A stretch of 64,000 bases of DNA from Candidatus Latescibacterota bacterium. GTDB lineage: Bacteria; Latescibacterota; UBA2968; UBA8231. The notes under the pieces are model-generated. The model was not told the origin of the DNA, ran no database searches, and was given only the letters and a program-made list of their open reading frames with translations. The translations under genes and the position numbers were made by a program. The stretch is from contig JAJDUT010000013.1 in NCBI GenBank assembly GCA_022826515.1, positions 49,990 through 113,989 of the forward strand, read 5' to 3'. This document shows, one piece after another, positions 37,568 through 60,191 of the stretch (its first letter is position 1; each line of letters starts with the position of its first letter).

Positions 37568-38572
37568 ATGAACCTAGAGAAAAAGGCTATATCCCAGTAC
37601 CTGAAACGCAAAAAACTGTGCACCGACGCGGGGCCGATCCGCGTCCAGAGCTTGAGTGACGGGCTAAAAAACCGGGTGTACTACGTAGAGGCTGCCAATC
37701 AGGCTTGGATCGTCAAGCAGGCGCACTCGCGCGTCCAAATCAAGGAGCGCTGGTGGACCGACCGGCGGCGCATCTTCGCTGAGAAGAGCTGTATCGAGCG
37801 CTTGGCGGAATTTCTCGCTCCCGAGGTCTTGCCGGAAGTCCTGCTTGAAGACCGTACGGACTTCATCCTCGTGACAACCCCACCGCCGCACAACGCCCTG
37901 TCGTGGGAAGGCGACTTGGTCAATGGCCGCATCGACCTGCAAATCGCCGTCCAGTGCGGCGAACTGCTGGCCACGGTCCACAACGAGACCGCCAACTCGT
38001 CCGAGGTCGCCGACGAGTTGGCATCTACTAAGGCATTTGAGCAACTGCGCATTGACCCGCACTACAACTATATCGCCAACGCCTATCCCGACCTCAAAAA
38101 GGCCATTGCCGTCCATACCAACCGCCTGCTCAAAGAGGGGTTTTGTCTCGTCTTGGGCGACTTGCGGCCCCGCAACGTATGGGTCGCCAACGGCCATCCC
38201 TATTGGGTCGATTTTGCCACCGCCCACTACGGCTACCCCACCTTTGACCTCGCCTTCTACACGGCTGATATGTGCATCAAGGCCATGCAGAACACCGCCC
38301 AAAAAGCCGCCTATTTAGAGGCCGTCAATGTATTCTGGAACAGCTATTTTCAGAATGCGAGCTACAAGAAAGCCGAGGAAGTCAAACACCAAGCCGTACA
38401 CGATCTCGGCTGCCTGCTATTGAGCGCGACCGACGGCCGCCAACCAGTCGCACTCGACGACGAACGCATCATCGGGCTCTCGCGGCGCATTGCTCAGAGC
38501 TTGATTTTAACGGGATTGGGGCGAATCGAGGAAGTCACTGAGTTCGTCAACCGGACCCTGATCGACGGCTAG
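37568..38572 (+). CDS. Aminoglycoside-phosphotransferase-fold kinase, substrate unknown
   Basis: 334 residues. APH/choline-kinase fold: an N-lobe with WIVKQAHSRV (Lys near 50), the catalytic loop VLGDLRPRNVWV (about 195-206; the usual HGD is LGD, Asp and Asn kept) and a metal-binding DFA in YWVDFATAHYG (about 214-224). The pattern, including RWWTDRRRIFAE in the N-lobe, is like methylthioribose kinase relatives. It would phosphorylate a small hydroxyl compound with ATP. It follows lipA by 9 nt and its 3' end overlaps the convergent GntR gene by 26 bp. Confidence 0.72.
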   Translation: MNLEKKAISQYLKRKKLCTDAGPIRVQSLSDGLKNRVYYVEAANQAWIVKQAHSRVQIKERWWTDRRRIFAEKSCIERLAEFLAPEVLPEVLLEDRTDFILVTTPPPHNALSWEGDLVNGRIDLQIAVQCGELLATVHNETANSSEVADELASTKAFEQLRIDPHYNYIANAYPDLKKAIAVHTNRLLKEGFCLVLGDLRPRNVWVANGHPYWVDFATAHYGYPTFDLAFYTADMCIKAMQNTAQKAAYLEAVNVFWNSYFQNASYKKAEEVKHQAVHDLGCLLLSATDGRQPVALDDERIIGLSRRIAQSLILTGLGRIEEVTEFVNRTLIDG

Positions 38573-39293
38573 TCCGCTGCAAATCCCCGCTGCTGGAGCA
38601 GATGTGCGCGGCCATCGCCTGCCGCGCGGCCTCCGCATCTCGCCGCTGCAATGCCGCCAATATCTGGCGGTGTTCCGCCAGTGAGAGTTCGGCCCGAGGG
38701 CCAGCCAGCGCCGGCTCCGCTAAACTTTCCTTGATCCATTCTTGTAGATAGCTGCGCGTGGTTTCGAGCAAACTGTAGAGAATAGAATTGTGCGTGGCCC
38801 GCGCAATAAGTAGGTGGAACTGCAAATCGCTGGCGAGAAAACGCCCCTCGTCAGAAAGCCCCCCGGCCATGCCGGCCAGCGCGTCGGCAATGGCCGCCAA
38901 ATCCTCGGGCGTGGCCCGTTCGGCCGCCAAATAGGCGTTTTGCGACTCGAGCATCATCCGCGTTTCGCTCAGGTCTTGGAGTTTCTTGCCGTCGAGCAAA
39001 AATCCCCACTGCAGCGCCCGCTCCACGTATTGGCCCTTGTTGCAGACAAAGGTGCCCTCACCCACGCGGCCGTCGAGTAGGCCCATCATGGATAGCGAGC
39101 GCAAGGCTTCGCGCAGCGAGGAGCGCCCAACCTGAAAGCGCTTGCACAGCTCCCGCTCCGGCGGCAGCCGGTCGCCGGGCTTGAGGACGTTGCGCTCGAT
39201 CAAGTCCGTTATCTGCGCGATAATCTCGTCGCTTACGGACGTGCGCTGCACCGGGCGCATGGCATCGTCAATCGGAGCCGTGGCTTTTTTCAT
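38547..39293 (-). CDS. GntR-family regulator, FadR subfamily (FCD domain)
   Basis: 248 residues. Winged HTH at about 17-82 (DEIIAQITDLIERNVLKPGD, VGRSSLREALRSL, GRVGEGTFV). The C-terminal FCD effector domain has the metal/ligand set DLQFHLL (about 158-164), EHRQILAAL (about 210) and MAAHI (about 230). FadR-type regulators bind TNGTNNNACNA palindromes and release DNA when they bind a small carboxylate or similar ligand. Exactly such a palindrome lies in the 115-bp divergent region towards the corrinoid operon, so this is its likely regulator, usually a repressor, and probably autoregulated. Confidence 0.9.
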   Translation of the reverse strand: MKKATAPIDDAMRPVQRTSVSDEIIAQITDLIERNVLKPGDRLPPERELCKRFQVGRSSLREALRSLSMMGLLDGRVGEGTFVCNKGQYVERALQWGFLLDGKKLQDLSETRMMLESQNAYLAAERATPEDLAAIADALAGMAGGLSDEGRFLASDLQFHLLIARATHNSILYSLLETTRSYLQEWIKESLAEPALAGPRAELSLAEHRQILAALQRRDAEAARQAMAAHICSSSGDLQRTSRRSGSG

Positions 39294-39332
39294 AAGCAGG
39301 TGCCAAGTGTCAAATGCAGAAGAAAATAAAAT

Positions 39333-39361
39333 TTGCCGATGGTCAGACCATTAGCTATTTT
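39333..39361 (+). promoter_or_regulatory. Corrinoid-operon promoter with embedded FadR-type operator
   Basis: TTGCCG (39333-39338) and TATTTT (39356-39361) with a 17-nt spacer; each box matches 4 of 6. The spacer contains the perfect 13-bp palindrome ATGGTCAGACCAT (39339-39351), which fits the FadR-family consensus TNGTNNNACNA at every fixed position. Regulator binding here would block RNA polymerase. Confidence 0.65.
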
Positions 39362-39408
39362 TTAAAACAGTACTCAATCCCGCGCTTTGCTGTCAAGAGG
39401 GAATGCAA

Positions 39409-40038
39409 ATGGCACAAACTTTGGATCTTGGCTCGCGCGTCGAATTGGTCTCCATGGATCCCCACTTCGACGACATTTCCATTGCGCTCTATTGCCCCGA
39501 TGGCCCTCCCTGCTATCAAGTCCACACCTACAGCCATCTCCCCGGAGCCGCCGGGCGCGTCGCCGGAGTCGCCCGCGCTATGCAGGTACTCGGCGGCATG
39601 GAACAAACCGGCGATGGCCTGCTCCGCTTCCCCTGCGGCCACGCCCATCAGTTCGCGGTCAAGCGGCTCTTCCTAGAGGCTTGTAAGCTGTCGCCGGAGC
39701 AGCCCGTCGAGCCGCGCCCACTGCACATTTTCGACAAAAAGGCCAACGCCACCATCGCCGTTGCCAGTCTCGGTCAGGGCCTGTACGAGGTCCTCGCCAC
39801 CGAACAGGTACGAGGTGTGGAGCGCCGCGTTGCCACTATCGCCCGCGGCCTAATTCGCCTCGGTGAGATGGAAGAAGTCGCCGATCAACCCAACCAAGTC
39901 CGCTTCGGCTGCGGCCACTCCCACGACGCCCTAATCGGCCTGTTGCTCGTCCGTGCCCCCAACGTGCGCGCCGCCGTGCGCGAGGCTGAAGCCATGGCCA
40001 GCCGCGGCGTGCTCTCAGCCCCCAGCGCCCAGGAATAA
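39409..40038 (+). CDS. Duplicated CGHxH-motif protein, function unknown, first gene of the corrinoid operon
   Basis: 209 residues from ATG 39409, chosen over ATG 39403 because AGAGG sits 8 nt upstream. I do not recognise the family. The protein is two similar halves of about 95 residues: each has a helix with RVAGVARAMQVLGGMEQ or RVATIARGLIRLGEMEE, a short strand, then LRFPCGHAHQFAVKRLFLEA or VRFGCGHSHDALIGLLLVRA. The CGH(A/S)H motif in each half could bind a metal or cofactor. There are no signal peptide or membrane segments. It starts the operon, 11 nt before the methyltransferase gene, so a role in substrate methyl transfer or cobamide/zinc handling is inferred only from context. Confidence 0.72.
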   Translation: MAQTLDLGSRVELVSMDPHFDDISIALYCPDGPPCYQVHTYSHLPGAAGRVAGVARAMQVLGGMEQTGDGLLRFPCGHAHQFAVKRLFLEACKLSPEQPVEPRPLHIFDKKANATIAVASLGQGLYEVLATEQVRGVERRVATIARGLIRLGEMEEVADQPNQVRFGCGHSHDALIGLLLVRAPNVRAAVREAEAMASRGVLSAPSAQE

Positions 40039-40049
40039 AGGAGTCTATC

Positions 40050-41096
40050 ATGCCTTCTTCGATGACCAGTCGCGAGCGTGTCCTCGCCGCCCTCGCCCGC
40101 CAGCCTGTGGACCGCACCCCGCTCTGCAACCCGACCTCGGTGGCCACCGTCGAATTGATGGACCTCGTCGATGCCCCCTTCCCCGCGGCCAACCGCGAGC
40201 CTGAACTCATGGCGCGGCTAGCTGCCACTGGCTACACCGAACTGGGCTTTGACACCATCATGCCGGTCTTCACCATCATCCAAGAATCCTCGGCCCTCGG
40301 GTGCAAAATCCAGTGGGAGCAAAAGGACAACTGGCCCACCGTCCGCATGAGCGAACCGATCTGGCACGAGCCAGACGACATCAAAATCCCCGCCGACCTC
40401 TGCACCCACCCCGACACGGCCTGCGTCACCGAAGCAATCAAAATTCTGCGCAAGGAATACGGCGACGAAGTCGCCATCGTCGGCAAGACCATGGGGCCTT
40501 GGTCGCTGGGCTACCACTGCTTTGGAGTCGAGCCTTTTCTGCTGCTGTCGCTCGACGATCCCGGTGAGACCAAGCTCTGCCTAGATCGCATGAAAGAGAT
40601 TACCATCGAATTCGGCCAAGCGCAGATCGAAGCCGGTGCCGACGCTCTGTGCCTGCCCGATCACGCCACCGGAGACCTCGTCAGCGGCGAGTACTACGAG
40701 CGCTACCTGCGCGACCTGCACATCGAGTTTGCCGAGCGGCTTTCGGTGCCCATCATCCTCCACATCTGCGGCCGCACGGTTGACCGTATGGAGTACATCG
40801 CCCAAACCGGCATGGCGGCCTTCCACTTCGATTCCAAGAATACGCCCGAAGAATCCACCCAAATCATGCGCGATCGCATCTCGTTAGTAGGCAACATCAA
40901 CAACCCCGAAACCCTTTTTTCTAAAGGACCAGAAGTCGTCAGCGCCGAAGTCGTGCGCAACCTCGAAGCCGGCGTCCAACTCATCGGCCCAGAGTGCGCC
41001 ATCCCCTTGCAGACCTCCATCGAAAACCTCAAAGCCATCCCCCACACGGTGCACGAGTGGCACCGGGACCAGGCTCGCAACAAGAAGAGATCATAA
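40050..41096 (+). CDS. UroD-fold corrinoid-dependent methyltransferase (MtaA/CmuA-like)
   Basis: 348 residues. Uroporphyrinogen-decarboxylase fold as in MtaA/MtbA and the N-terminal half of CmuA. It lacks the strict UroD active-site pattern but has the zinc set of the methyltransferases: HICG (about 234-237, His and Cys) and GPECAIP (about 311-317, Cys). It is expected to move a methyl group between a corrinoid protein and a zinc-activated acceptor, or from a methylated substrate to the corrinoid. The next gene, the corrinoid protein, begins at the base after the stop (TAAATG). AGGAG precedes ATG 40050. The substrate is unknown. Confidence 0.82.
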   Translation: MPSSMTSRERVLAALARQPVDRTPLCNPTSVATVELMDLVDAPFPAANREPELMARLAATGYTELGFDTIMPVFTIIQESSALGCKIQWEQKDNWPTVRMSEPIWHEPDDIKIPADLCTHPDTACVTEAIKILRKEYGDEVAIVGKTMGPWSLGYHCFGVEPFLLLSLDDPGETKLCLDRMKEITIEFGQAQIEAGADALCLPDHATGDLVSGEYYERYLRDLHIEFAERLSVPIILHICGRTVDRMEYIAQTGMAAFHFDSKNTPEESTQIMRDRISLVGNINNPETLFSKGPEVVSAEVVRNLEAGVQLIGPECAIPLQTSIENLKAIPHTVHEWHRDQARNKKRS

Positions 41097-41852
41097 ATGG
41101 CAGACATCACCGACATCGCCAACGAATTTATCCGCGACGAGATCGAAGAATTTATCGAGCGCGACGAAGAGCGCGAGCGCATCATCGGCATCTTTGCCCA
41201 AGCCAGCGAGCAGATGCAGAATATCGCCGCAGCCCTCATCGACGGCGACCACCATACGGTGGACGAACTGACCGGCCAAGCCATTGCCGCTGGCGTGGAA
41301 GCCCTCGAAGTCATGGACGACGGGCTGATTGCCGGCATGGCCATCGTCGGCATCAAATTCCGCGAAAACTTTATCTTCGTCCCCGAAGTGCTAGCTTGTG
41401 CCCGCGCCATGAAGGCCGGCATGACCCACATCGAGCCTATTCTCTCGGCCTCGGGCGTCGAGCCCATCGGCATTGTGATCATGGGCACGGTTAAGGGCGA
41501 TCTCCACGACATCGGCAAAAACTTGTGCATTATGATGCTGCGCGGGGCTGGCTTCGTCGTCCACGACCTAGGCGTAGATACCTCCGAAGACGAGTTCATC
41601 GACGCCGTCGAAGAGCACGAAGCCCCGCTCTTGGGTATGTCGGCCCTGTTGACTACCACCATGCCGAACATGGGCAAGACCATTGAGGCCTTCATCGACG
41701 CCGACTTGCGCGACGACGTCAAAATCATGGTCGGCGGCGCACCCGTGACCCAGGAATTTGCCGACGACATGGGCGCCGACGGCTACGGCAAGGACGCCCT
41801 CGCCTGCGTGTCCTTGGCCAAGGACTTGCTGAATGAACTTGAGGACGAGTAG
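41097..41852 (+). CDS. Corrinoid (B12-binding) methyl-carrier protein
   Basis: 251 residues. Residues about 20-115 are the helical cap (B12-binding-2); the Rossmann-like cobamide domain has the base-off ligand motif GDLHDIGKN (about 135-143; DxHxxG), LLGMSALLTTTMPNM (about 178-192) and MVGGAPV (about 212-218). These match the MtaC/MtbC/MtgC-type carriers that take up the methyl group as methyl-Co(III). About 20 extra acidic residues precede the cap. It is adjacent to the UroD-type methyltransferase; in CmuA the two are fused. Confidence 0.92.
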   Translation: MADITDIANEFIRDEIEEFIERDEERERIIGIFAQASEQMQNIAAALIDGDHHTVDELTGQAIAAGVEALEVMDDGLIAGMAIVGIKFRENFIFVPEVLACARAMKAGMTHIEPILSASGVEPIGIVIMGTVKGDLHDIGKNLCIMMLRGAGFVVHDLGVDTSEDEFIDAVEEHEAPLLGMSALLTTTMPNMGKTIEAFIDADLRDDVKIMVGGAPVTQEFADDMGADGYGKDALACVSLAKDLLNELEDE

Positions 41853-41880
41853 GGTGTATGGGTGATGCCCTCCAGCGACG

Positions 41881-42162
41881 ATGATCAAAACATTCGCCGA
41901 TAGAGAAACCCAAAGGGTCTATACAGAGGGACAATCGAGACGTTTACCACCCGACCTAATTCAAAGAGCCATGAGACGATTAGAGTACATCGATCTTGCT
42001 CAGACCTTGAACGACTTGCGCGTACCGATCAGTAATCGTCTCCATCCCTTGAAGGGGAATCGCCAAGGCCAACACTCCATATCCATCAACGATCAGTGGC
42101 GTATCTGCTTTCGCTTTGCCAACGGTGACGCCTACGATGTAGAGATAACAGATTATCATTAA
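41881..42162 (+). CDS. higB: HigB/RelE-type toxin
   Basis: 93 residues. RelE-superfamily host-inhibition toxin: N-terminal MIKTFADRETQRVYTEGQ, RAMRRLEYIDLAQTLNDL, then SISINDQWRICFRF (about 67-80) with the catalytic-face tryptophan and arginine, and DVEITDYH at the end. HigB proteins cut mRNA on the ribosome. The toxin-before-antitoxin order is typical of higBA. Its codon usage is more AT-rich than the flanking corrinoid genes, suggesting recent insertion. It lies 28 nt after the corrinoid gene. Confidence 0.92.
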   Translation: MIKTFADRETQRVYTEGQSRRLPPDLIQRAMRRLEYIDLAQTLNDLRVPISNRLHPLKGNRQGQHSISINDQWRICFRFANGDAYDVEITDYH

Positions 42163-42173
42163 AGAGGTGATTA

Positions 42174-42500
42174 ATGGCTATCGCGAATGACCAAAAACGC
42201 ACCATCCCGCCCACGCATCCTGGGGCGATGCTAAGAGAAGATTTTCTTCCCGACTACGCATTGACGGCGGACTCTTTGGCCGATGAGTTGGGCGAATCTC
42301 GACATACCATCCGTGAACTCCTACAAGAGCAGTGCTCTATTTCGTCCATCATGGCTTTGAAACTATCCCGTTTATTCAGGAACTCTCCTGAGTTTTGGCT
42401 GAGGGCCCAACACGCCAGAGATCTTTGGGAGTTGGAGCAGCAATATCGAGACGAACTGGCTCAGATCGAGCCATTGCCACTGTACACTTCTGAGCGATAA
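42174..42500 (+). CDS. higA: HigA-type antitoxin (XRE HTH)
   Basis: 108 residues. HTH of the VapI/HigA type: PPTHPGAMLREDFLPDYALT, SLADELGESRHTIRELLQEQ and the SISSIMALKLSRLFRNSPEF helix, ending in a conserved WLRAQHARDLWELE tail. It neutralises HigB and autoregulates the pair by operator binding. AGAGG lies upstream of ATG 42174. The RACo gene begins 14 nt after it, so the toxin-antitoxin pair is transcribed in line with the corrinoid operon. Confidence 0.93.
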   Translation: MAIANDQKRTIPPTHPGAMLREDFLPDYALTADSLADELGESRHTIRELLQEQCSISSIMALKLSRLFRNSPEFWLRAQHARDLWELEQQYRDELAQIEPLPLYTSER

Positions 42501-42514
42501 CGACGCCTTCGTCC

Positions 42515-44392
42515 ATGACCCAAATCGACCCCCAAGAGTACCAAAAGAGCCTCGACCGCCTGTCGGACATTCTCGCGGGCATCGCTACCCATGCCGACGT
42601 GCAGGCGACCTTCCGCTGCCCGTATAAGAACCGCTTCGACCAATGCACCGCCCACTTCGGCTGCCGCAATCAGCGCAAGCCAAAAGAACCGGGCGGGCTG
42701 TTCCAGTGCGGCAGCGACGACCAGCTCGACTACCGCTCGGCCTGGGAGACGGAGCAACGTCCGGCCACACCCGGTCGCGGCCAAATCCGCTGCGACGGCA
42801 CCTCCTACCCGCTATCGACTGGCGGCACCCTCTTCGACTACGCGGATCAACTCGGTGCCCGGGTACCCACCTCCTGCGGACGCACCGGCCACTGCCACGA
42901 GTGCATCGTCGAGGTCACGAGCGGCGCGCAAGCCCTCAGCGCACCGACGCCGGCCGAGGACTTCCTCGGCGGTGAATTCCGGCTCGCCTGCCAAGCCAAA
43001 GTCGAAGACGCGGATGTCGATATCGAGTTTGCACCACTTTTTCGCACGCCCCGCATACTGACCCAGACCGTGGATCGATCCGCCGAGATCGAACCCGTAG
43101 TCCAGCGGCGCGGGCAAGCCATCTACTATGGCAACGAAGAAATCGACCAATACCGCGGCCACCTCTACGGCCTAGCCATCGACTTGGGCACCACCACCAT
43201 CGTCCTCGACTTAGTCGATCTGGAGACGGGCGAGAGCGTGCATTTGAGCGCGTTTGAAAACCCGCAGCGCTTTGGCGGCAGCGACATCATGCACCGCATC
43301 TCCTACGACGGGCAACACCCCGGTGAGCTGCGCCAAGCCTTGGTCAAGGCGCTCAACCACGAGATCGCGGGTCTATGCCAGCGCGGCGGCTTTGTGCGGC
43401 AGGAGATTTACGAGATCGCAGTCGCCGGCAACTCGACGATGCGCGACATCCTCTTCCGCCTCGACGTGCAGAGCATCGGCCAAAAGCCCTACAAATCGCG
43501 CATTGAGCACGAATATCTAAGCGGCGAACGCACCGCGACCAGCCTAGTCGAAAAGACCCGTCGCCTCGGCCTGAAGGCCAATCCCAAGGCGCGCGCGTAT
43601 TCGCTGCCGCTGATTGCCAGTCACGTCGGCGCGGATGTGGCCGCCGACTTAGTCGCCGTCGATATGGACCTTGCCAGCGAGAGCGCGATGCTGGTCGATG
43701 TAGGCACCAACACCGAAGTAGTAGTCGCGCATCAAGGCCGTCTCGTCGCGGCCTCTTGCCCGGCTGGCCCGGCCTTTGAGGGCGGCGGCATCACCTATGG
43801 GATGCCCGGCTGCGACGGAGCCATTGAATCCATCCGCTGGGACGGCGCACGCTGGCAGTGGAAAACCATCGGCGACACCGCGCCAGCGGGACTGTGCGGC
43901 TCTGGGCTAATCGACCTCCTCGCCGAGTTGCGCCGCCACGACTTAATGACTCCCAAAGGCGTTTTCGCCGCCAAAAAGCGCCAGTTTGAGCTAGTTCCCG
44001 AGCGCGGCATCACTTTCTCGCGCCTCGACGCCTCCAACCTCGCCCAAGCCAAAGCCGCCAATTTCTGCGGTCAGTACATCGTCTTGCGGACCTTGGGCCT
44101 GAATCCAGGCGACGTGCAACAGCTCTACCTCGCCGGTGGCTTTGCCAACTACGTCGATGTCCAAGCCGCCATCGACATTGGCTTTTTGGCCCCCGTGCCC
44201 ATCGCCCGCATCGCCAAGGTGGGCAATGCCGCCGTCCAAGGGGCGCGCGAAGCACTCCTCTCCGCCAGCAAACGCGCCCGCATCGAAGCGCTGGCCAAGC
44301 GCATTGAGCACGTCGAACTGGAGACGACCCCGGACTTTTTTGAACTCTTCGTCGAGGGCTGCCAATTCAAACCCATGCCCGCCGCACTTTAG
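42515..44392 (+). CDS. RACo-like reductive activator of corrinoid proteins (2Fe-2S + ASKHA)
   Basis: 625 residues. N-terminal extension with CPYKNRFDQC and HFGC (about 35-50), then a 2Fe-2S ferredoxin domain (about 88-175; TSCGRTGHCHEC and LACQ), a linker and the ASKHA domain (about 210-620; AIDLGTTTIVLDL, VAGNSTMRDI, LVDVGTNTEVVV, AGLCGSGLIDLL). RACo proteins use ATP to reduce inactive Co(II) corrinoid to Co(I). This fits the corrinoid protein two genes upstream. The additional N-terminal cysteines are not part of the usual ferredoxin set. The MTHFR gene follows after 2 nt. Confidence 0.9.
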   Translation: MTQIDPQEYQKSLDRLSDILAGIATHADVQATFRCPYKNRFDQCTAHFGCRNQRKPKEPGGLFQCGSDDQLDYRSAWETEQRPATPGRGQIRCDGTSYPLSTGGTLFDYADQLGARVPTSCGRTGHCHECIVEVTSGAQALSAPTPAEDFLGGEFRLACQAKVEDADVDIEFAPLFRTPRILTQTVDRSAEIEPVVQRRGQAIYYGNEEIDQYRGHLYGLAIDLGTTTIVLDLVDLETGESVHLSAFENPQRFGGSDIMHRISYDGQHPGELRQALVKALNHEIAGLCQRGGFVRQEIYEIAVAGNSTMRDILFRLDVQSIGQKPYKSRIEHEYLSGERTATSLVEKTRRLGLKANPKARAYSLPLIASHVGADVAADLVAVDMDLASESAMLVDVGTNTEVVVAHQGRLVAASCPAGPAFEGGGITYGMPGCDGAIESIRWDGARWQWKTIGDTAPAGLCGSGLIDLLAELRRHDLMTPKGVFAAKKRQFELVPERGITFSRLDASNLAQAKAANFCGQYIVLRTLGLNPGDVQQLYLAGGFANYVDVQAAIDIGFLAPVPIARIAKVGNAAVQGAREALLSASKRARIEALAKRIEHVELETTPDFFELFVEGCQFKPMPAAL

Positions 44393-44394
44393 CC

Positions 44395-46005
44395 ATGTCG
44401 CTGACCGCGCTCCATCCACCCGCCCGCTACTCGGGTGCCTGGCAGAAGAAACCCCTGCGCCACCTGCTCGAAACCACCGACACCTTCGTCCACATCGTCG
44501 AGTTGGTGACCTCGCGGGGCTTAATCACCGAGCGCGACGGCCGCAAGGTTCTCGCCCTCGCCCGCCGCCTCGCCGAGCATCCGCAATTCCACGCTCTGAG
44601 CATCACCGACAACCCCGGGGGTAACGCCATGATCAACCCGGACACCCTCGGCACAGACCTGATCTCGCGCGGGCAAGACGTCATCATCCACCTCTCCTGC
44701 AAGGACTGGAACCGCAACGCGCTGCAAGGCCGCGCTTGGCAACTCGCCAGCGAGGGCTTCAACAACATCCTCGCCCTGTCTGGAGACTACCCCATTAGCG
44801 GCTATCAAGGCACGGCCGGGGGGGTCTTCGACCTCGACTCAGTCGGCCTGCTCGAAATGTTCGCCGCCATGAACGCTGGGCTGAAAATGAAAAAGGGCAA
44901 GCGGACCCAGCGCATGGAGGCCACGGATTTTTACCTAGGGGCCGTAGTCAACAACCACAAGCGCTACGAGCGCGAGGTCATGCCCCAATACTTCAAGCTG
45001 GCCAAAAAAATCCACGTCGGCGCGGCTTTTGTCATCAGCCAGATCGGCTACGACGCGCGCAAACAGGACGAGTTGCTCAAATACATGGCCCTGTGCGGTC
45101 TCGAGGTCCCGGTCATCGCCAACGTGTACGTGCTCTCGCGGTCGGCGGCGCGCTTCTTCCACAAGGGCCACATTCCCGGAGTTGAAGTCACCGACGAGTT
45201 GATGGCCGTCGTCGAAAAGCAGGCCCAAGCCAACGACAAGGGCCGAGCGTTTTTTTTGGAACTGGCCGCCAAGCAATGCGCCATTGCCAAGGGCCTCGGC
45301 TACCGGGGAGCTTATCTCGGCGGGCACCTGCAATACGGCGATTACGAAAAAATCCTCGCGCTCGCCGCGACCTACTCGGAAGACGATTGGCGCGATTTTG
45401 CCAAAGAACTCTGCTTCTCCTTTGCCGACGAATTTTACTTTTTTGAACCTCAGGGCGACACCGGTCTCAGTTCTACCACCATCAACCGCGCGTACCTCGC
45501 CTCCAAAGAGCAAGCCGCCCTCCGCCAAGCACGCGGTCGCCTACCGCTGAGCTACAAGGTAAACCGCCGCGTCCACGACCAAGTATTTGCGCCCGAGAGC
45601 GCAGGCTTTCGCACCGGTGCTCATCTCGCCCGCGCTCTAGCTGAGCACCCCAAGGCCGCCAAGCTCTTCCACGCGGCCGAGCACGCGCTCAAAATCGCTG
45701 CTTTTGACTGCCGAGACTGCGGCGATTGCTCGCTGCCGGACATCGCCTACTTGTGCCCGGAATCGCAGTGCGTCAAAAACCAGCGCAACGGCCCCTGCGG
45801 CGGCACCCGCCAAGGCAAGTGCGAAGTCGGCGACAAGGACTGCATTTGGGCGCGTGCGTACGACCGCCTCAAAGCCTATGGCGAAGAGGAACAAATGCTC
45901 GGCGACGCAGCCGTTATCAAGGATGCGGCCTTACAGGGCACCAGCGCTTGGGCCAACGCCTTTTTGCAAAAAGATCACCACGGCAAGAAAAAAAATTCGC
46001 AGTAA
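44395..46005 (+). CDS. metF: Methylenetetrahydrofolate reductase with Cys-rich C-terminal domain
   Basis: 536 residues. Residues about 25-300 are the MetF TIM barrel (IVELVTSRG, ALSITDNPGG, LALSGDYP, GAAFVISQIGYD). From about 435 comes a C-terminal zinc-ribbon-like extension with about ten cysteines (CRDCGDC, CPESQC, GPCGG, CEVGDKDC), as in the PF12225-type MTHFRs of acetogens and C1 users. It interconverts CH2-THF and CH3-THF; in methyl-catabolic clusters it works in the oxidative direction. It lies 2 nt after the RACo gene and ends the operon. A run of 8 T occurs in the coding sequence near 45250. Confidence 0.88.
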   Translation: MSLTALHPPARYSGAWQKKPLRHLLETTDTFVHIVELVTSRGLITERDGRKVLALARRLAEHPQFHALSITDNPGGNAMINPDTLGTDLISRGQDVIIHLSCKDWNRNALQGRAWQLASEGFNNILALSGDYPISGYQGTAGGVFDLDSVGLLEMFAAMNAGLKMKKGKRTQRMEATDFYLGAVVNNHKRYEREVMPQYFKLAKKIHVGAAFVISQIGYDARKQDELLKYMALCGLEVPVIANVYVLSRSAARFFHKGHIPGVEVTDELMAVVEKQAQANDKGRAFFLELAAKQCAIAKGLGYRGAYLGGHLQYGDYEKILALAATYSEDDWRDFAKELCFSFADEFYFFEPQGDTGLSSTTINRAYLASKEQAALRQARGRLPLSYKVNRRVHDQVFAPESAGFRTGAHLARALAEHPKAAKLFHAAEHALKIAAFDCRDCGDCSLPDIAYLCPESQCVKNQRNGPCGGTRQGKCEVGDKDCIWARAYDRLKAYGEEEQMLGDAAVIKDAALQGTSAWANAFLQKDHHGKKKNSQ

Positions 46006-46050: not shown

Positions 46051-47718
46051 ATGATGCTCCTCCAACGATTCATGCGCTGCCTGTGGGTCACCTGCTTGGG
46101 CATCGCAAGTGGCTGCGACCTCTTGTCGGAACGTCCCGTAGCAGAAGTAGGACCACACCAAATCACCGCCGCTGCGCTGAAGAGTTTTGCCGCCGAATGG
46201 TCGGGGCGCAGACCTGCTGCACAGACCGCCGACCAAGCCCGTCGGCACTATCTGCAGACCATGATCGACGCCCGTCTGTTGCTGCTAGAAGCCCGTTCCC
46301 TCGGGATCGATACCACGCAGGCCGTGCGCTCAATCGTTCAGGACGCAATCGACAACCGAGTCAGCGCCCTCTATCGGGCCCGCGAAATCACGGATGCAAT
46401 CGCAATTCCCGAAGACGAGATTCGCGCCTATTTCGACGATGAGGGCTATGGCCTAGAGCGCAAAGTCAGCGGCATACTGGTGGAGCGCCAGAGTGAGGTG
46501 GATTCGGTTTTGACCCTACTGCGCGCCGGACGGCCCTTTGCAGAAGTAGCTGCTGCCTACTCCATAGATGCGCGCTCGGCCCGCCAAGGCGGCGAACTGG
46601 GTTTCATAGGGCGCGACATGGCCCCGCGGATCCACATCCCACCAGAGGTTTTCCGCACCCTCCCCCTCGACGCAATCTCGGAACCCATGTACACGGGCAA
46701 GTACTGGAACATCGTGCGCTTCACCGAAGAGCGGCCCGCTTCCTACGACAAGTATCGGGACTCCATCAGCAGGCAGCTCTTTGCCGAGCGATCTGCCCAA
46801 GCCACAAGGGAACACCTCGAACTGCTTCATAACGCGTTTGAGGTGCGGCTGCGCGAAGAGGCCCTCCTGCCGCTAGTAAGTGCCTACCAGCGGCAGGATC
46901 TCTCCCCGCTGACCGCGGAATCGCTTCCCCTATATACCTTTGACGAGGGCGAGATCACCGTGGCAGCAGCGGTGAAGGTTTTGCAACAACAAAACATCGG
47001 CTCTGGATTCGCCGACAGCACACAAGCAGCCTCCACGCTCAAGCGCATCGTCCTGAATCCCTTCCTCATCAAAAAAGCCGCACGGCGAGCGGGCTACTAC
47101 CAAAAACCCGCAATCCAGCAGCTAGAGAAAATAAAAGAAGAGGAAGCCCTGCTCGATGGCCTCAAAGAAACCATAACCCAAGACCTAGACGTATCCGAGG
47201 AGGACGTGCGCCGCTACTACGACAGCCACCCCGACATATTTAGCCACGAGCCTGCGGTATGGGTTGAGGAACTACTCCTGCCCAGTGCCGACGAAGCGAA
47301 AAAAAAGAGAGCACTGCTAGAAGGCGGCACACCCTTTGCCGACCTAGCGGGCGAAAGCCTGCGCTCGGACGCCATTGAGAAGGCCAATCGATTCCACTTC
47401 CACCCGCTGAAGAAAGCCATCTATCCCAAGCTGATGGCGGCGCTTGAGGATGCACCCGAGGGCGAACTCATCGGACCCGTGGCCGTCGAGGGAGGCTTTT
47501 CCCTTTTTCGCATCCTCAGCCATGAGGAGGCCTCCATCGAACCCTATGAACAGGTTCAGAGGAGGGCTGCCGCCCTGCTGCGCCGCGAGCGAGAGCACTG
47601 GCATCTGCAAGCCTTGTTGGAGAAATTGCGCGAAAAGTACGCCGCCCAGATCAAGATCGACGAAGCGCGCCTGCGCGAAGCCGTGCCCCCCGCTGCTGCC
47701 GTAAAATCGACGAATTGA
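46051..47718 (+). CDS. SurA/PpiD-like parvulin peptidyl-prolyl isomerase lipoprotein
   Basis: 555 residues. Lipoprotein signal CLWVTCLGIASGCDLLSE (lipobox ASGC), SurA-N-like helices (RRHYLQTMIDARLLLLEARS), a parvulin domain (about 135-235; GGELGFIGRDM), a helical spacer and a second degenerate parvulin region (about 400-500). It acts as periplasmic chaperone/foldase for outer-membrane proteins. The last about ten codons (PPAAAVKSTN) are the antisense of the FG-GAP gene that overlaps its end by 163 bp, so the C-terminus seems to have been rewritten by a rearrangement. It follows the MTHFR gene by 45 nt but is functionally unrelated. Confidence 0.8.
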   Translation: MMLLQRFMRCLWVTCLGIASGCDLLSERPVAEVGPHQITAAALKSFAAEWSGRRPAAQTADQARRHYLQTMIDARLLLLEARSLGIDTTQAVRSIVQDAIDNRVSALYRAREITDAIAIPEDEIRAYFDDEGYGLERKVSGILVERQSEVDSVLTLLRAGRPFAEVAAAYSIDARSARQGGELGFIGRDMAPRIHIPPEVFRTLPLDAISEPMYTGKYWNIVRFTEERPASYDKYRDSISRQLFAERSAQATREHLELLHNAFEVRLREEALLPLVSAYQRQDLSPLTAESLPLYTFDEGEITVAAAVKVLQQQNIGSGFADSTQAASTLKRIVLNPFLIKKAARRAGYYQKPAIQQLEKIKEEEALLDGLKETITQDLDVSEEDVRRYYDSHPDIFSHEPAVWVEELLLPSADEAKKKRALLEGGTPFADLAGESLRSDAIEKANRFHFHPLKKAIYPKLMAALEDAPEGELIGPVAVEGGFSLFRILSHEEASIEPYEQVQRRAAALLRREREHWHLQALLEKLREKYAAQIKIDEARLREAVPPAAAVKSTN

Positions 47719-48767
47719 CCGTCTCCTTGATTCTGGTACAGCGTGTTGACGTCGTCTGAAAAGTGGGTCATGTACAGATCCAGATCGCCGTCATTGTCGT
47801 AGTCGCCAGCCGCCGCGCCCATGCCGGCCTGCGCCCGCCCGTCCTCGCTGTAGGCCGCCCCAGCAAAGGCCGCCACTTCCGTCAATTGCCAATGCCCGTC
47901 GTTGCGATAGAGCAGGTTGGGGTAGCCGTCGTTGGCCACGTAGAGATCCTGGTCGCCGTCGCCGTCGCCGTCTAAAAAGACCACCCCCAAGGACGCCTGC
48001 TTGTCTGCGTCAATCCCCGTCGTCCGGCTCACATCCGCAAAGCCAGTCCCGCCCTCGTTGCGATAGAGCACGTTGGCTTGAGGCACCATGCCGTGCGGAC
48101 CGCAATAGACATCCAGCCCCTTGAAGCCACTACAGAGTTGGCCGCCGCCGGGCGGGTTTTCCAAGTCGAAGACCAAATAGTTAGCCACGTAGAGATCTAA
48201 AAATCCGTCGGCATCCACGTCTCCAAATGCCGCGCTAGTTCCCCAGCCATCGTCCTCTACGCCCAGCTCAACCTCGGCAAACCTTTCCCCGTCGTTGCGA
48301 TAGAATACATTGGGACCCCAATAGGTGACGTACAAGTCCAGATCGCCATCGTTGTCGTAGTCTCCGACCGCGCACCCCATACCCCAACCCGTCCGCCGCA
48401 GACCAGCCTCATCGGTTTTGTCCTCAAAGACTCGCCCATTGGTCCCTTCGCTGTTGCGGTAGAGCCGATTGGAGTGATGCGAGGAATCGGCCTCCACTCG
48501 CGTGCTATTGACCAAAAACAGGTCGAGATACCCATCGCTATCGTAGTCGAAAAAAGCGGCCCCCGACGACATCGATTCGAGGATATAGCGCTGCTCTGCG
48601 CTGCCGGAGACTTGGCGGAAATCGAGGCCGACAGTCTCGGTCACATCGACGAATTGCACTTCGGCTGTCGCTGTTTCGATCTCCGCTTCTGGCTCGCATC
48701 CTGTGCCCCACATCAGGCTTACAAGCCCCATGCCGGCGATCCATCCACGCATTAGTCTCATTTCCAT
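47556..48767 (-). pseudogene. Truncated CRTAC1-type FG-GAP lipoprotein fused antisense to the PPIase gene end
   Basis: About 403 residues from ATG 48767 (lipobox GTGC). It has seven or so FG-GAP units (DYDSDGYLDLF, DYDNDGDLDLYVT, DGDGDGDQDLYVA) down to GDGQFVDFTAAAGG. From about 47690 the frame runs into the reverse strand of the peptidyl-prolyl isomerase gene and reads arginine/serine-rich nonsense (RRRASSILIWAAYFSR, ending RAAALL). The C-terminal propeller part and the ASPIC/UnbV domain of the family are missing; the intact copy at 10710 has 736 residues. It is probably inactive or partially functional. Confidence 0.75.
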
Positions 48768-48900
48768 AGAGTAGAAAAGGTTGCCCTGCCCACTGCCCAA
48801 AGTACGCAATAACGTACAAAAATAAACCCATCGTCTATCATTGAGATTGACCATATATTCTCTGTAGAAAACAGGCACGTGCCCAAACGCTGAGGAATAA

Positions 48901-49311
48901 ATGGCAGCCATCCATCACATCTGGTTATCAGTCTCCGATCTGGATACTGCGACGAGATTCTACTCGCCCTTGCTAGCGGCGCTTGGCTTCCGAGCGTTGT
49001 CCTCGCACCTGACAGAGCAGGGCGCGATCGACAGATTGCGATTCGAAAAGGATGGGATGATTCTGCTGATCGGCCGCACTACAGAAGCAGGCCGACATGA
49101 GCGGGGAAAACCGGGACTGCACCATCTCGCCTTTTCTGTGGACTCACGGGCAGAAGTCGAACGAATCTACGAAGAGGTGATCAAGAATCTAGAGCATGTG
49201 GATGTCGAAGATCCGCCAATCGACTGTCCAGAGTACCGCGAGGGATACTACGCGACTTTCTTCTTCGACCCTGACGGTATCAAGCTCGAAGTAACTTACA
49301 CCCCCGAGTAA
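48901..49311 (+). CDS. VOC-family (glyoxalase/bleomycin-resistance fold) protein
   Basis: 136 residues with two beta-alpha-beta-beta-beta modules. HHIWLSVSDLDTATRFYSPL (4-23) gives the first metal-ligand histidine; LHHLAFSVDSRAEVE (about 72-86) and the terminal DPDGIKLEVTY glutamate complete the pattern. Such metalloenzymes include glyoxalase I, dioxygenases and resistance proteins; the substrate is unclear. ATG 48901 is close to AGGAA. It is divergent from the truncated FG-GAP gene and 18 nt before the esterase gene. Confidence 0.88.
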   Translation: MAAIHHIWLSVSDLDTATRFYSPLLAALGFRALSSHLTEQGAIDRLRFEKDGMILLIGRTTEAGRHERGKPGLHHLAFSVDSRAEVERIYEEVIKNLEHVDVEDPPIDCPEYREGYYATFFFDPDGIKLEVTYTPE

Positions 49312-49329
49312 ACCAGAAAACGGCAGTAT

Positions 49330-51564: not shown

Positions 51565-51592
51565 GCTGAAGACTTGGCCCTTCGTCGTCCCA

Positions 51593-54535: not shown

Positions 54536-54554
54536 GCGCCAAGAAGCTACATGA

Positions 54555-56399: not shown

Positions 56400-56479
56400 G
56401 GGTAAGACCTCGTGGTGAATTAGGTGGGAGAGAGCGTGGTCAAAACAAAAGCCTGATCGCGCCGACAAATAGCGGCGGT

Positions 56480-56850: not shown

Positions 56851-57879
56851 ATGAACATCCCCGGTACGGACCGTCCCTTCTTCGTCATCGGCGAAAACAT
56901 CCACACCACCCGCGTCGTCTTGCGCAAGGGTAAGCTCATCGGCCCAGACCCCCAAGGCGTCGAATCCGTGCGCTTCCGCGACGCCAACAACAAGCGCCGC
57001 TTCCTCCACATTCCCGAAGCAGTCAAAACAACCCAAGACTACGAGGAAGGCCGCGTCAAACACCTCAAGATCGCCGTGCAACAAGCCATGCTCGGCAACG
57101 CGGATGGCCTCGACTATCTGCGCCGCCAAATACAGCGCCAAGAAGCGGCCGGCACCGATTTCCTCGACTTGAATGTCGATGAGATATCGCTCAAACACGT
57201 AGAGCAACAAGAAGCCATGCGCTGGTTGGTACAGACGGTATCGGCCATGTCGCAGACGCCCTTGGCCATCGACTCTTCTCAGATAGACACCCTCGCCGTC
57301 GGTCTCAAAGCCGGAGCCGACCACCCCCAGCGCCTCCTGCTCAACTCCGCATCTTTAGAGCGACCCGAAGCCCTAGAGCTAGCCAAACGATACAATGCCC
57401 AAGTCATCATTACTGCGGCGGGCGAGTCCGGTATGCCGCAAAGTGCGCAAGAGCGGATCGATCACGCCCGGCAGATGGTAGATAAGGCCCTCGCCTTGGG
57501 GCTGCCGCTCGCCGACTTGTACATCGACCCCTTGATCTTCCCCATCTCGGTTGACGAGCAATTCGGCCACCACGCTTTTGACGCCATCCGCCAATTGCGC
57601 GACGAGTTAGGTGCCGACGTCCACATCACTGGAGGCTTCTCCAACGTCTCCTTCGGCCTGCCCTGCCGCCACTTGATCAACGACGTCTTCCTGCTGCTAG
57701 CCGTCGAAGCCGGAGCCGATAGCGCGATCATGGACCCGACTACTACTTCTCTAGCCGACCTCTTTTCCACCGACCGCCAAGCTCGTCCCTACCAACTCGC
57801 CGAGGATATGCTGCTGGGCCGCGACGAGTACTGCGCCGCCTTCCTCCGCGCCTATCGCAAAGGCGAACTCGCCGCCTAG
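56851..57879 (+). CDS. Pterin-binding (methyltetrahydrofolate:corrinoid) methyltransferase
   Basis: 342 residues. DHPS-like TIM barrel as in AcsE, MtgA, CmuB and MetH domain 2. Seen: GENIHTTRVVLRKG at the start, AGTDFLDLNVDE (about 99-110), PLAIDSSQIDTLAVGLKAG (about 141-159), LLNSASLERPE (about 164-174) and DVHITGGFSNVSFGLP (about 257-272). It would move the methyl group between CH3-corrinoid and THF, the step missing from the operon at 39.4-46 kb. It is not adjacent to a corrinoid gene. Start ATG 56851 lacks a strong Shine-Dalgarno. No CoA- or ACP-related residues are seen. Confidence 0.84.
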   Translation: MNIPGTDRPFFVIGENIHTTRVVLRKGKLIGPDPQGVESVRFRDANNKRRFLHIPEAVKTTQDYEEGRVKHLKIAVQQAMLGNADGLDYLRRQIQRQEAAGTDFLDLNVDEISLKHVEQQEAMRWLVQTVSAMSQTPLAIDSSQIDTLAVGLKAGADHPQRLLLNSASLERPEALELAKRYNAQVIITAAGESGMPQSAQERIDHARQMVDKALALGLPLADLYIDPLIFPISVDEQFGHHAFDAIRQLRDELGADVHITGGFSNVSFGLPCRHLINDVFLLLAVEAGADSAIMDPTTTSLADLFSTDRQARPYQLAEDMLLGRDEYCAAFLRAYRKGELAA

Positions 57880-57979: not shown

Positions 57980-58909
57980 ATGCGGAACGACAAAATCTGT
58001 ATCTTTGCTGCTCTGCTGTCGTTGGCCCTCACCGCCTGTAGCAAAGAAATATCCCATACCGAATTGGTCGCCGAATTAGTCGCCGACCTGAGTACGGATC
58101 ATATCGTCCACACGTTAGGCGACCAACGCCCGGCCTTTTTGGTCCTCCCTGCCGATCACGACCCCAAGACGCCCATTCCGCTCGTACTAAGCCTGCACGG
58201 CTTCACCAGCCACTTGGCCCAACACGACCGCTATTTTGGTCTCTCAAAGCGGGTGAACGACGATCGCTTCGCCCTCATTATGGCCAACGGCACGCGCGAC
58301 CCCGATGGCAAGCGCTTTTGGAATGCCACGGACTTTTGCTGCGACCTCCACGACACCCAGGTCGATGACGTGAAGTACCTTTCCGGGCTGCTTGAAGAAG
58401 CGGCCACGCACATCGCCGTAGAGCGCATCTTCGCCCTCGGACACTCCAACGGCGGCTTTATGTCCTATCGACTCGCCTGCGAAGGCGTCCCGGGCTTAGT
58501 CGCCATTGCCAGCCTCGCCGGCACTTCCTTTAGCGACCCCTCCCGTTGTGCCTTCGCATCCCCAGTCTCAGTGCTGCAAATCCATGGCACAGCCGACGAG
58601 ATCGTGGCCTACGACGGCAGCACGGGCGAGCAGGAGTACGCCGGCGCACAAGAAGTCGCGCTGCGCTGGGCGGCCCTCGCCCGCTGCGATCTCACCGATC
58701 CAGAAACCCTTCCCCCACTCGACCTAGACCAAGGTATCGACGGCCCCGAGACCGTCCGCACCCGCTACCGCACGGGCTGCCGCCACGACGTCACCATCGA
58801 GTTGTGGACCATAGAGCAGGGCGCGCACATACCGCACTTTGCGCCCGACTTTGGCCAACGCTTGCTCAAGTGGCTGTTCAACGACTCCCGCCCCGACACC
58901 CTATCCTAG
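57980..58909 (+). CDS. LpqC/PHB-depolymerase-like esterase lipoprotein
   Basis: 309 residues. Lipoprotein signal LLSLALTACSKE (lipobox LTAC). Alpha/beta hydrolase core: oxyanion region VLSLHGFTSH (about 71-80), nucleophile motif LGHSNGGFM (about 153-161) and a late ASPVSVLQIHGTADEIVAYD with the Asp, and a terminal GAHIPHF histidine. It resembles esterases of the poly(3-hydroxybutyrate) depolymerase/feruloyl esterase group. Strong AAAGGAGG precedes ATG 57980. A methyl- or feruloyl-esterase releasing methoxylated aromatics would fit the C1 context, but that is speculation. Confidence 0.82.
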   Translation: MRNDKICIFAALLSLALTACSKEISHTELVAELVADLSTDHIVHTLGDQRPAFLVLPADHDPKTPIPLVLSLHGFTSHLAQHDRYFGLSKRVNDDRFALIMANGTRDPDGKRFWNATDFCCDLHDTQVDDVKYLSGLLEEAATHIAVERIFALGHSNGGFMSYRLACEGVPGLVAIASLAGTSFSDPSRCAFASPVSVLQIHGTADEIVAYDGSTGEQEYAGAQEVALRWAALARCDLTDPETLPPLDLDQGIDGPETVRTRYRTGCRHDVTIELWTIEQGAHIPHFAPDFGQRLLKWLFNDSRPDTLS

Positions 58910-58923
58910 ACGGAGACAACCCT

Positions 58924-59913
58924 GTGTCCCTTTTCCTTCAGCGCCTAGACGACCCGCGCCCCCTCTTGTACGACGGTGGTTTTGGCTCCGAGCTTTTCGC
59001 CCGTCAAATCGAACTGACCAACTCCACCCTCGCCATCGAAAGCCATCCAGAGGCCGTCGTCGATATTCATGCCGAATACATCGCCGCAGGTGCCGACTGC
59101 ATTGGCACCAACACCTTTGTCGCCTCTGAGCTGCACCTCGCCATGGCCGGTAAAGACCCGACCCAAGCCGGTGTGCTAGCCCGGCGCGGGGCCGAACTGG
59201 CACAACGCGCTCGGGAGCGCAGCGAGCGCGATGTCTTCATCGCCGGCACCATCGGCCCCTCCCCCGGAGCCATCGAAGCCGACACGGGCAACACGGATTT
59301 CGGCATTGCCAACGACAAGGTCCGCGCCGCGCATCAACGCATCATCGACGCGCTATATGAGGGGGGGGTCGATTTTTTTTCTATTGAGACCCAGTTTTCC
59401 GCCGTCGAAGCGGCCATGGTTTGCGACATCGCCCGCCAGACTGGCCTGCCCATTGCCGTCAACCTCGCGCTCAAATACACGCGGGATCGCAAAAGCAAGC
59501 AGATCGTCTATCGCACCGATTGGGGGCACTCGGTCGGCGACCTGTTGGACATACTCGCCTCGGGCCAATACTCCGGCGGCGATAACCTCCTCGACCACGT
59601 CCACATCGTCGGGGTCAACTGCGGCGCTGAAACCCGGCGCAGCGAGCACACCGGCATGCCGTACGCCCTCCACGGCGCTGAGCAGTTTAAGGCCGCCATG
59701 CAGGAGCGCGGCCTCGACAAGAAGCTGATGACCTATCCCAACGCCGGTATGCCGCAACTCAACAGCGCCCTCCGCACCATCTACTCGCAAAGCCCCGAAG
59801 AAATGGCCGCGTTTATCCCAGACCTAGCGACCGCCGGCGTCCAGATCATCGGCGGCTGCTGTGGCACTACACCGAACCACATCCGCGCCTTTCGCCAGAT
59901 ACTCGACTCATGA
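58924..59913 (+). CDS. Homocysteine S-methyltransferase-family (zinc) methyltransferase
   Basis: 329 residues from GTG 58924 (GGAG about 8 nt upstream). TIM barrel: LLYDGGFGSELF (about 16-27), CIGTNTFVAS (about 59-68), IAGTIGPSPG (about 105-114), then zinc ligands VGVNCGAE (about 231-238) and GGCCGTTPNHI (about 307-317). These are the Cys of MetH-N, BHMT and MmuM enzymes, which take methyl from betaine, S-methylmethionine or a corrinoid and pass it to homocysteine. Contains a run of 8 G followed by 8 T near 59361. It lies 14 nt after the esterase gene; its stop overlaps the next ATG by 4 nt. Confidence 0.88.
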   Translation: MSLFLQRLDDPRPLLYDGGFGSELFARQIELTNSTLAIESHPEAVVDIHAEYIAAGADCIGTNTFVASELHLAMAGKDPTQAGVLARRGAELAQRARERSERDVFIAGTIGPSPGAIEADTGNTDFGIANDKVRAAHQRIIDALYEGGVDFFSIETQFSAVEAAMVCDIARQTGLPIAVNLALKYTRDRKSKQIVYRTDWGHSVGDLLDILASGQYSGGDNLLDHVHIVGVNCGAETRRSEHTGMPYALHGAEQFKAAMQERGLDKKLMTYPNAGMPQLNSALRTIYSQSPEEMAAFIPDLATAGVQIIGGCCGTTPNHIRAFRQILDS

Positions 59914-60191
59914 TTCAATACCAAGTCCTCTACTGGCGCGACATCCCCGTGCAAATCAAGCTCTTCGCCGGCCGCCGACCGAGCTCGCACACCCTACCCG
60001 GCCGCTTCCAATTGGCGATCGACCGCATCGCCATGCAGGAAGGACTAGTGGGCACCGACGCCTATCTAGACCAGTGGCACTGGTCCGCAAAGCAAGAGCG
60101 CGCCGGTACCCCCGAAGACGTGCTACCAGTGCTCTTGCGTGAAACCGAAGAGGAAGGCAACCGCATCCTCGCCGAGTATAAACAATCGTGA
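59910..60191 (+). CDS. Virulence-factor-domain (PF13769-like) protein, 93 aa
   Basis: 93 residues. [20 protein letters not shown] (4-23) and [20 protein letters not shown] (about 32-51) match the small family named 'virulence factor' (PF13769) in proteobacterial genomes, whose molecular role is unknown; in several organisms it neighbours methyltransferase genes. ATG 59910 lies in the stop of the homocysteine-type methyltransferase (ATGA), and its own TGA overlaps the mnmG GTG, so it is translationally coupled on both sides. A role with the methyltransferase is suggested by position only. Confidence 0.75.

Follow-up and report, generated by a model that had tools for sequence, protein, structure and literature searches.

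A candidate corrinoid methyl-transfer hub joining a UroD-type enzyme and a new partner protein to homocysteine and folate in Candidatus Latescibacterota

What gives up its methyl group, and what receives it, in an operon of corrinoid-dependent enzymes from a Candidatus Latescibacterota bacterium? The operon lies in a window of 64,000 nucleotides of contig JAJDUT010000013.1, to which all coordinates refer, and encodes a methyltransferase with the fold of uroporphyrinogen decarboxylase (UroD), a corrinoid carrier, the activator RACo, a methylenetetrahydrofolate reductase (MTHFR) and a protein of a new family, CGH. An initial annotation had proposed corrinoid methyl transfer; every open reading frame (ORF) that it named exists where it had been placed, as judged by an ORF check and family profiles, and the family assignments of the parts bear the proposal out. 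Its parts and their placement stand, but it stopped early and missed three downstream genes, which encode MtgD-like, MtgE-like and PF13769 proteins. With these included, the locus may form a corrinoid methyl-transfer hub that passes the methyl group of a substrate to homocysteine and, in the lineage of the window, also to and from folate, a reading whose chances we judge to be evenly balanced. The genes on which it draws are:

39403..40038, + strand: CGH protein, two tandem homologous domains, each with a C-x3-H motif (C78/H82 and C170/H174)
40050..41096, + strand: UroD-fold corrinoid methyltransferase of the MtaA/CmuA family, with a putative zinc-ligand triad (H238, C240, C316)
41097..41852, + strand: stand-alone corrinoid carrier of the MtgC/MtbC type, with DLHDIG at 135 (PF02607 and PF02310)
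42515..44392, + strand: RACo/RamA-type ATP-dependent corrinoid reductive activator with a 2Fe-2S domain (PF14574, 217 bits; PF17651, 138.5 bits; PF00111)
44395..46005, + strand: MTHFR fused to a Cys-rich C-terminal domain, DUF5981, with an 8-Cys tail (PF02219, PF12225)
56851..57879, + strand: stand-alone tetrahydrofolate (H4folate):corrinoid methyltransferase, MtgD-like (PF00809, 81 bits; PRK07535, 207 bits, under the cut-off of 259)
about 58924..59913, + strand: homocysteine S-methyltransferase, MtgE-like, with a GGCC motif (PF02574, 183.8 bits)
59910..60191, + strand: small PF13769 ("Virulence_fact") protein (60.5 bits)

Intergenic gaps of 0–28 bp separate the plus-strand genes from CGH through MTHFR, so that a single transcript is plausible. 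The MtgE-like gene likely starts at a GTG at 58924, within the ORF 58546–59913. About 10–11 kb of other genes (46051–56468: a PPIase, an FG-GAP protein, a glyoxalase, an esterase, a TonB receptor and a protein with a secretion tail) lie between the operon MTHFR and the MtgD/MtgE half, and in two relatives assembled as single contigs (G005 and G008) the halves stand similarly apart. The two halves are contiguous in loci L025–L027, and the MtgD-like gene adjoins MTHFR in these and in L138, L139 and L141. In several relatives the genes after MTHFR encode a pterin-binding methyltransferase, a PF02574 homocysteine methyltransferase and a PF13769 protein, and MtgE is found near carrier and RACo in relatives. 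The MtgD-like, MtgE-like and PF13769 genes belong to the gene set of the operon.

Conservation was followed in two sets of sequences. A CGH-alignment scan of GTDB species contigs gave 142 confirmed loci, of which the best 80 were kept; these are biased towards CGH presence because they were found with CGH patterns, and several repeat one genome (e.g., L021/L142, L087/L139 and L030/L140). The second set comprises the 47 nearest genomes, which form one class and are related rather than independent, and absences for the lineage of the window are argued from the 11 genomes of its nearest genus. The bearers are metagenome-derived genomes, most of them under the labels Latescibacterota, Poribacteria or Gemmatimonadota; such names are bin labels and may be wrong ("Betaproteobacteria" for L052 and L090, "Alphaproteobacteria" for L081). 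CGH and UroD lie on one strand no more than 2 kb apart in 79 of the 80 loci, and no more than 300 bp apart in 75, a linkage beyond chance. Carrier and RACo continue after them in 37 loci, in every one of which RACo follows the carrier in the same orientation, and the initial annotation's expectation of a gene set conserved together was thus confirmed. Further downstream, MTHFR was found in 21 of the 80 loci and MtgD and MtgE in 13 each; MtgE stands on either side in 19 of the 37 carrier-bearing loci. At the level of genomes, CGH and the UroD orthologue (at least 73% identity) occur together in the same 44 of 47 and are both missing from the same three (G012, G014 and G034). The carrier (at least 70%, near full length) is in 41 genomes, with a partial copy in G024 where the contig ends; it was not found in G037 and G040. 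Identities of 73–98% for UroD and 70–99% for the carrier across relatives indicate strong constraint.

The evidence that bears most directly on the fate of the methyl group comes from relatives in which MtgD was not found. Of the 44 genomes with CGH and UroD, 23 encode MtgD as a stand-alone orthologue (at least 51% identity; in two pieces in G023), and none was found in the other 21. We searched 18 of these 21 for pterin-binding enzymes, and all 18 carry CGH, UroD and the carrier. In 15 the search matched nothing beyond a FolP-like protein and a domain within a long frame assigned to MetH (both labels were given from score and frame length), and G013 gave the FolP-like protein only. G016 and G018 have another pterin-binding enzyme on the contig with their gene for DUF1638, a domain family treated below. 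No other stand-alone folate methyltransferase was therefore detected in 16 of the 18. The ten of these 18 genomes whose loci were fetched all have CGH, UroD, carrier, RACo and MtgE; among the other eight, a PF02574 gene lies within ~3 kb of the carrier in seven, and none is near it in G020 among the matches listed. A homocysteine methyltransferase gene is thus beside the carrier in 17 of the 18 searched genomes. This gene content leaves UroD/CGH and MtgE as the recognised encoded partners of the carrier, and by elimination the methyl group would run between the substrate of UroD and homocysteine. The MtgE family uses homocysteine as methyl acceptor, and together with the MtgD-less versions this points to a direction towards homocysteine.

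Twelve Poribacteria-labelled genomes, reached through loci with CGH and UroD only, have the carrier (80–83% identity) elsewhere, the set being split in two. Ten of the 12 have carrier, RACo and MtgE without MtgD in the fetched stretch, and in one the contig breaks off. Upstream of carrier-RACo-MtgE in six of the 12 regions (L117–L122) stands a gene that by eye resembles a TRAP-type solute-binding protein, which could reflect substrate uptake or simple synteny.

The identity of the methyl donor turns on the UroD protein. It scores above the curated cut-offs of the MtaA/CmuA family TIGR01463 (255.7 against 235.4 bits) and of PRK06252 (263 against 244). HemE was ruled out, with 65 bits on the hemE equivalog against a cut-off of 302.95, and the view that this protein is not a true uroporphyrinogen decarboxylase holds. 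Ten of the 11 nearest-genus genomes carry a second UroD-family gene, 23–26% identical, which is presumably HemE. The triad H238, C240 and C316 is kept in 121 of 121 homologues, all close ones, and the H-x-C...C pattern is also present in the alignment to 4ay7. According to PMC10418091, a His-Cys-Cys site marks the S- and Se-methyltransferases of the UroD superfamily; the haloalkane enzyme CdmB is reported to require no zinc (PMC13222342). By the former rule the substrate of UroD and CGH is most likely an S- (or Se-) methyl compound, and the site argues against an O-substrate. A Pfam scan of 20 window proteins and a search of all 11 nearest-genus genomes gave no MttB-type enzyme (PF06253), in keeping with the earlier remark that no such substrate enzyme is visible; 8 of the 47 genomes overall have one.

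CGH has no Pfam or NCBIfam match and no clear PDB match. Its two halves are mutually homologous (hhalign probability 97.3%, E 2e-11; at most 2.9% in 20 column-shuffled controls), and C78, H82, C170 and H174 are invariant in 27 CGH sequences. The protein might hold a single metal site shared by the halves or two separate ones. Its tight linkage with UroD suggests that CGH serves as a subunit, bound to the enzyme, the carrier or the substrate, and we propose CGH as the partner of the UroD protein. It constitutes a newly defined protein family without a Pfam entry, tied to the UroD enzyme in all but one of the 80 loci.

We hypothesize the following pathway. UroD with CGH would bind the methylated substrate at the His-Cys-Cys zinc site, most likely through S (or Se), and pass its methyl group to cob(I)alamin on the carrier encoded at 41097; RACo would re-reduce carrier that has fallen to Co(II), and the MtgE-like enzyme would take the methyl group from the carrier to homocysteine, giving methionine. 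The folate arm, MtgD-like protein plus MTHFR, would be an addition in the lineage of the window that links the carrier to CH3-H4folate in either direction. Surplus methyl groups could be oxidised through this arm, and methionine may also be made from folate methyl groups, since no MetH was found in the nearest genus: its 11 genomes lack the MetH activation domain (PF02965) and gave no long MetH frame in the carrier search. G005 and G008 have one PF02574 protein (MtgE), one MTHFR (that of the operon) and one MtgD each. Across the class, 16 of the 19 genomes lacking PF02965 have MtgD, against 7 of the 25 that possess the domain (Fisher p 0.0003, kinship ignored). A bolder version, which we hold tentatively and a little short of an even chance, is a new and widespread folate-independent corrinoid route to methionine in which a two-protein demethylase of UroD and CGH moves the methyl group of an S- or Se-methyl compound onto a dedicated carrier and the PF02574 enzyme delivers it directly to homocysteine, with lineages lacking MetH having joined the folate arm to this route and made the route their methionine synthase. 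Such a route would be a corrinoid counterpart of betaine-homocysteine methyltransferase.

Several observations weigh against a hub with this direction and substrate. No substrate, transporter or catabolic gene in the neighbourhood points to a sulfur compound, the triad count is limited to close homologues, and the closest solved relative with the same triad methylates a thiol and does not demethylate, so that the sequence leaves the direction unfixed. MtgE is about 7–20 kb from the operon in the genus of the window and missing from the fetched stretch in 18 of the 37 carrier-bearing loci, and CGH and UroD are on different contigs in G026. The MetH domain also occurs in 25 of the 44 genomes, where the UroD/CGH core is consequently not needed for methionine; PF01717 (core-MetE-like) proteins in 46 of the 47 genomes could make methionine as well, and divergent enzymes could escape the profiles. 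Furthermore, three loci (L030, L081 and L090) have carrier and MtgD without MtgE in the stretch, and one Poribacteria-labelled region (L126) reads carrier-RACo-MTHFR-MtgD-PF13769, again without MtgE, which favours a folate route. These four also speak for a purely catabolic operon, in which the substrate methyl group would go through the corrinoid to H4folate and be oxidised through MTHFR for energy. Both the H4folate:corrinoid methyltransferase and MTHFR are encoded, the regulator described below has a conserved candidate operator, and Ruegeria MetF2 has been proposed to oxidise CH3-H4folate (PMC12478193). We nonetheless consider this unlikely, given a homocysteine methyltransferase in the set of many relatives, 16 searched MtgD-less genomes without another stand-alone pterin methyltransferase, and an operon MTHFR that is the sole one found in 5 of the 11 nearest-genus genomes (G001, G005, G006, G008 and G010), where it must serve biosynthesis too. 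Oxidation by way of folate and MTHFR, the route drawn by the initial annotation, survives as one arm; that account had missed both the H4folate methyltransferase that this arm requires and MtgE, and sits poorly with the 21 of 44 genomes without an MtgD orthologue and with the sole MTHFR of those five.

The flow might instead be reversed, as the solved relative would allow: UroD would then be an acceptor enzyme, like MtaA or MtbA, that methylates a thiol from the methyl-carrier, with the methyl group coming from CH3-H4folate or from the side of MtgE. MtgD-less genomes leave only MtgE among recognised enzymes to charge the carrier, against the acceptor role of homocysteine in its family, and no MttB-type donor turned up in 39 of the 47 genomes; we regard this direction as quite unlikely. 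Improbable in our view is that UroD and CGH are helpers of a split methionine synthase, loading or reactivating its cofactor, with CGH replacing DUF1638. In Phaeobacter inhibens a three-part methionine synthase goes with a RamA-like protein and DUF1638, and DUF1638 mutants are rescued by methionine (PMC5764234). DUF1638 occurs in only 7 of the 47 genomes (1 of the 11 of the nearest genus), each with a copy beside a second carrier paralogue, 48–53% identical, and never beside the carrier of the operon, which would suit a replacement. On the other side, a profile comparison of CGH with DUF1638 found no relation (0.2% probability), the UroD ligand triad is kept, and if UroD were not the donor, no methyl source could be recognised in the MtgD-less versions. 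Two more copies of DUF1638 (G018 C29 and G019 C223) sit on contigs where no carrier was matched. In L096 and L098 (G019 and G021), a UroD-family-like ORF, recognised by eye, stands ahead of the DUF1638 gene that accompanies the second carrier paralogue, and these bacteria may have a second UroD-type corrinoid system.

Returning to the hub proposed here, its nearest known likeness is MtgBCDE of Ruegeria pomeroyi (PMC12478193) together with the split methionine synthase (PMC5764234). Shared are a stand-alone carrier, pterin and homocysteine methyltransferases, RACo/RamA and an MTHFR with a C-terminal domain, often in genomes without MetH. In Ruegeria, mutants show that carrier and MtgD are common to glycine betaine demethylation and methionine synthesis, and Candidatus Handelsmaniibacteriota is listed among the mtgC contributors (PMC12478193). 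The window carrier is 43.7% identical to that of S. meliloti and 46.0% to that of Paracoccus aminovorans, and falls below the curated MtgC cut-offs (205.6 against 370; 173.5 against 310). On pSymB of S. meliloti the neighbours of the carrier are a trimethylamine-methyltransferase family gene, DUF1638, a "virulence factor", an MTHFR C-terminal-domain protein, MTHFR and a methyltetrahydrofolate-cobalamin methyltransferase; Paracoccus aminovorans has the same without the "virulence factor" and with an ASKHA (RACo-type) protein. The stretches examined include MtgE in neither, and DUF1638 is not beside the carrier of the window. The donor in the window is of the UroD/MtaA rather than the MttB type, CGH stands in place of the unrelated DUF1638, and the system also occurs without the folate arm. 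Judged by its genes, it appears Mtg-like on the folate and homocysteine side and, with UroD and CGH in place of MttB and DUF1638, not a member of Mtg on the substrate side; it is best filed as an Mtg-type corrinoid methyl-transfer variant with a new donor module.

Other systems share single features. Type 1 mlp clusters (Kountz and Balskus, PMC10418091) have an MtaA-like protein with His-Cys-Cys, a carrier and RACo, and methyl-S/Se chemistry is proposed for them. Their definition requires two or more Mlps and excludes any H4folate methylase closer than 20 kb, and they are described in obligate anaerobes only, whereas the window has one Mlp among the scanned genes, an MtgD-like gene 15.8 kb from UroD and a homocysteine methyltransferase. 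The chloromethane system CmuA/CmuB and CdmBCA (PMC13222342) likewise run from a UroD-superfamily methyltransferase through a corrinoid to H4folate. CmuA unites methyltransferase and corrinoid domain in one protein; these are separate genes in the window (40050..41096 and 41097..41852), as had been noted initially. CdmB groups with O-demethylases, and the excerpt of PMC13222342 mentions no homocysteine methyltransferase or CGH-like protein for either system. In MesA-C (PMC7857596) the methyl group is thought to pass from a corrinoid protein directly to homocysteine, as proposed here; Mes is of the core-MetE type, in contrast to the PF02574 enzyme and the UroD and CGH donor side of the window. 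The comparison suggests that the Mtg chassis is modular, its donor side being MttB or a UroD and CGH module. If our hypothesis is true, 44 of the 47 class members share one B12 hub that makes methionine with methyl groups from what is probably a sulfur compound, and this would matter for methyl-sulfur turnover and vitamin-B12 dependence in the habitats of the bearers.

Upstream of CGH and within the operon lie three further features:

38547..39293, - strand: FadR-family (GntR plus FCD) regulator, divergent (PF00392, 66.2 bits; PF07729, 92.7 bits)
39340..39350, no strand: candidate operator, palindrome TGGTCAGACCA, between regulator and CGH
41881..42500, + strand: HigB-HigA toxin-antitoxin pair (PF05015, TIGR02607)

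An orthologue of the regulator (at least 45% identity) is divergent from CGH in 18 of the 80 loci. GGTCNGACC is present in all 24 divergent regions (23 places, L030 being identical to L140); in 500 mononucleotide shuffles GGTN3ACC occurred in a mean of 1.4 regions and a maximum of 6. TGGTN3ACCA is present in 19 of the 24, against a mean of 0.10 regions and a maximum of 2. The window has a single exact copy of TGGTCNGACCA, and a one-mismatch copy at 21302 is within chance; 1.90 Mb of fetched, partly overlapping loci hold 24 exact copies, every one upstream of CGH. The palindrome is likely the operator of the FadR-type regulator, a pairing that we infer from its position and conservation, and the regulator would control the operon through TGGTCNGACCA. 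The operator resembles the consensus of E. coli FadR, and FCD domains tend to sense small organic acids. The probable inducer of the operon is its substrate or a product.

The PF13769 gene is found downstream in 8 of the 80 loci, with a further example at L148:9909-10211. Proteins under this name recur beside MtgD/MtgE-type clusters in the lineage of the window and in S. meliloti, and the name "virulence factor" looks misleading; a subunit or chaperone of the methyl-transfer machinery may be encoded. A second PF02574-like gene, 26–32% identical, lies upstream of CGH in L134, L135, L136 and L137 and between UroD and carrier in L147. Five genomes (G039, G041, G042, G044 and G045) have 12–14 PF02574 matches each, against 1–8 in the other 42.

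HigBA had been counted as a member of the operon, which the relatives do not support: HigA and/or HigB stand at that place in 3 of the 37 carrier-bearing loci (L018, L022 and L023), and a part in the pathway was rejected. By its distribution the pair appears to be a lineage-specific insertion unrelated to the pathway, which in a few strains separates the gene for the carrier from that for RACo. At L022 (~13861-15028) HigBA follows a fragment of the RACo gene that looks as if the insertion had duplicated it.

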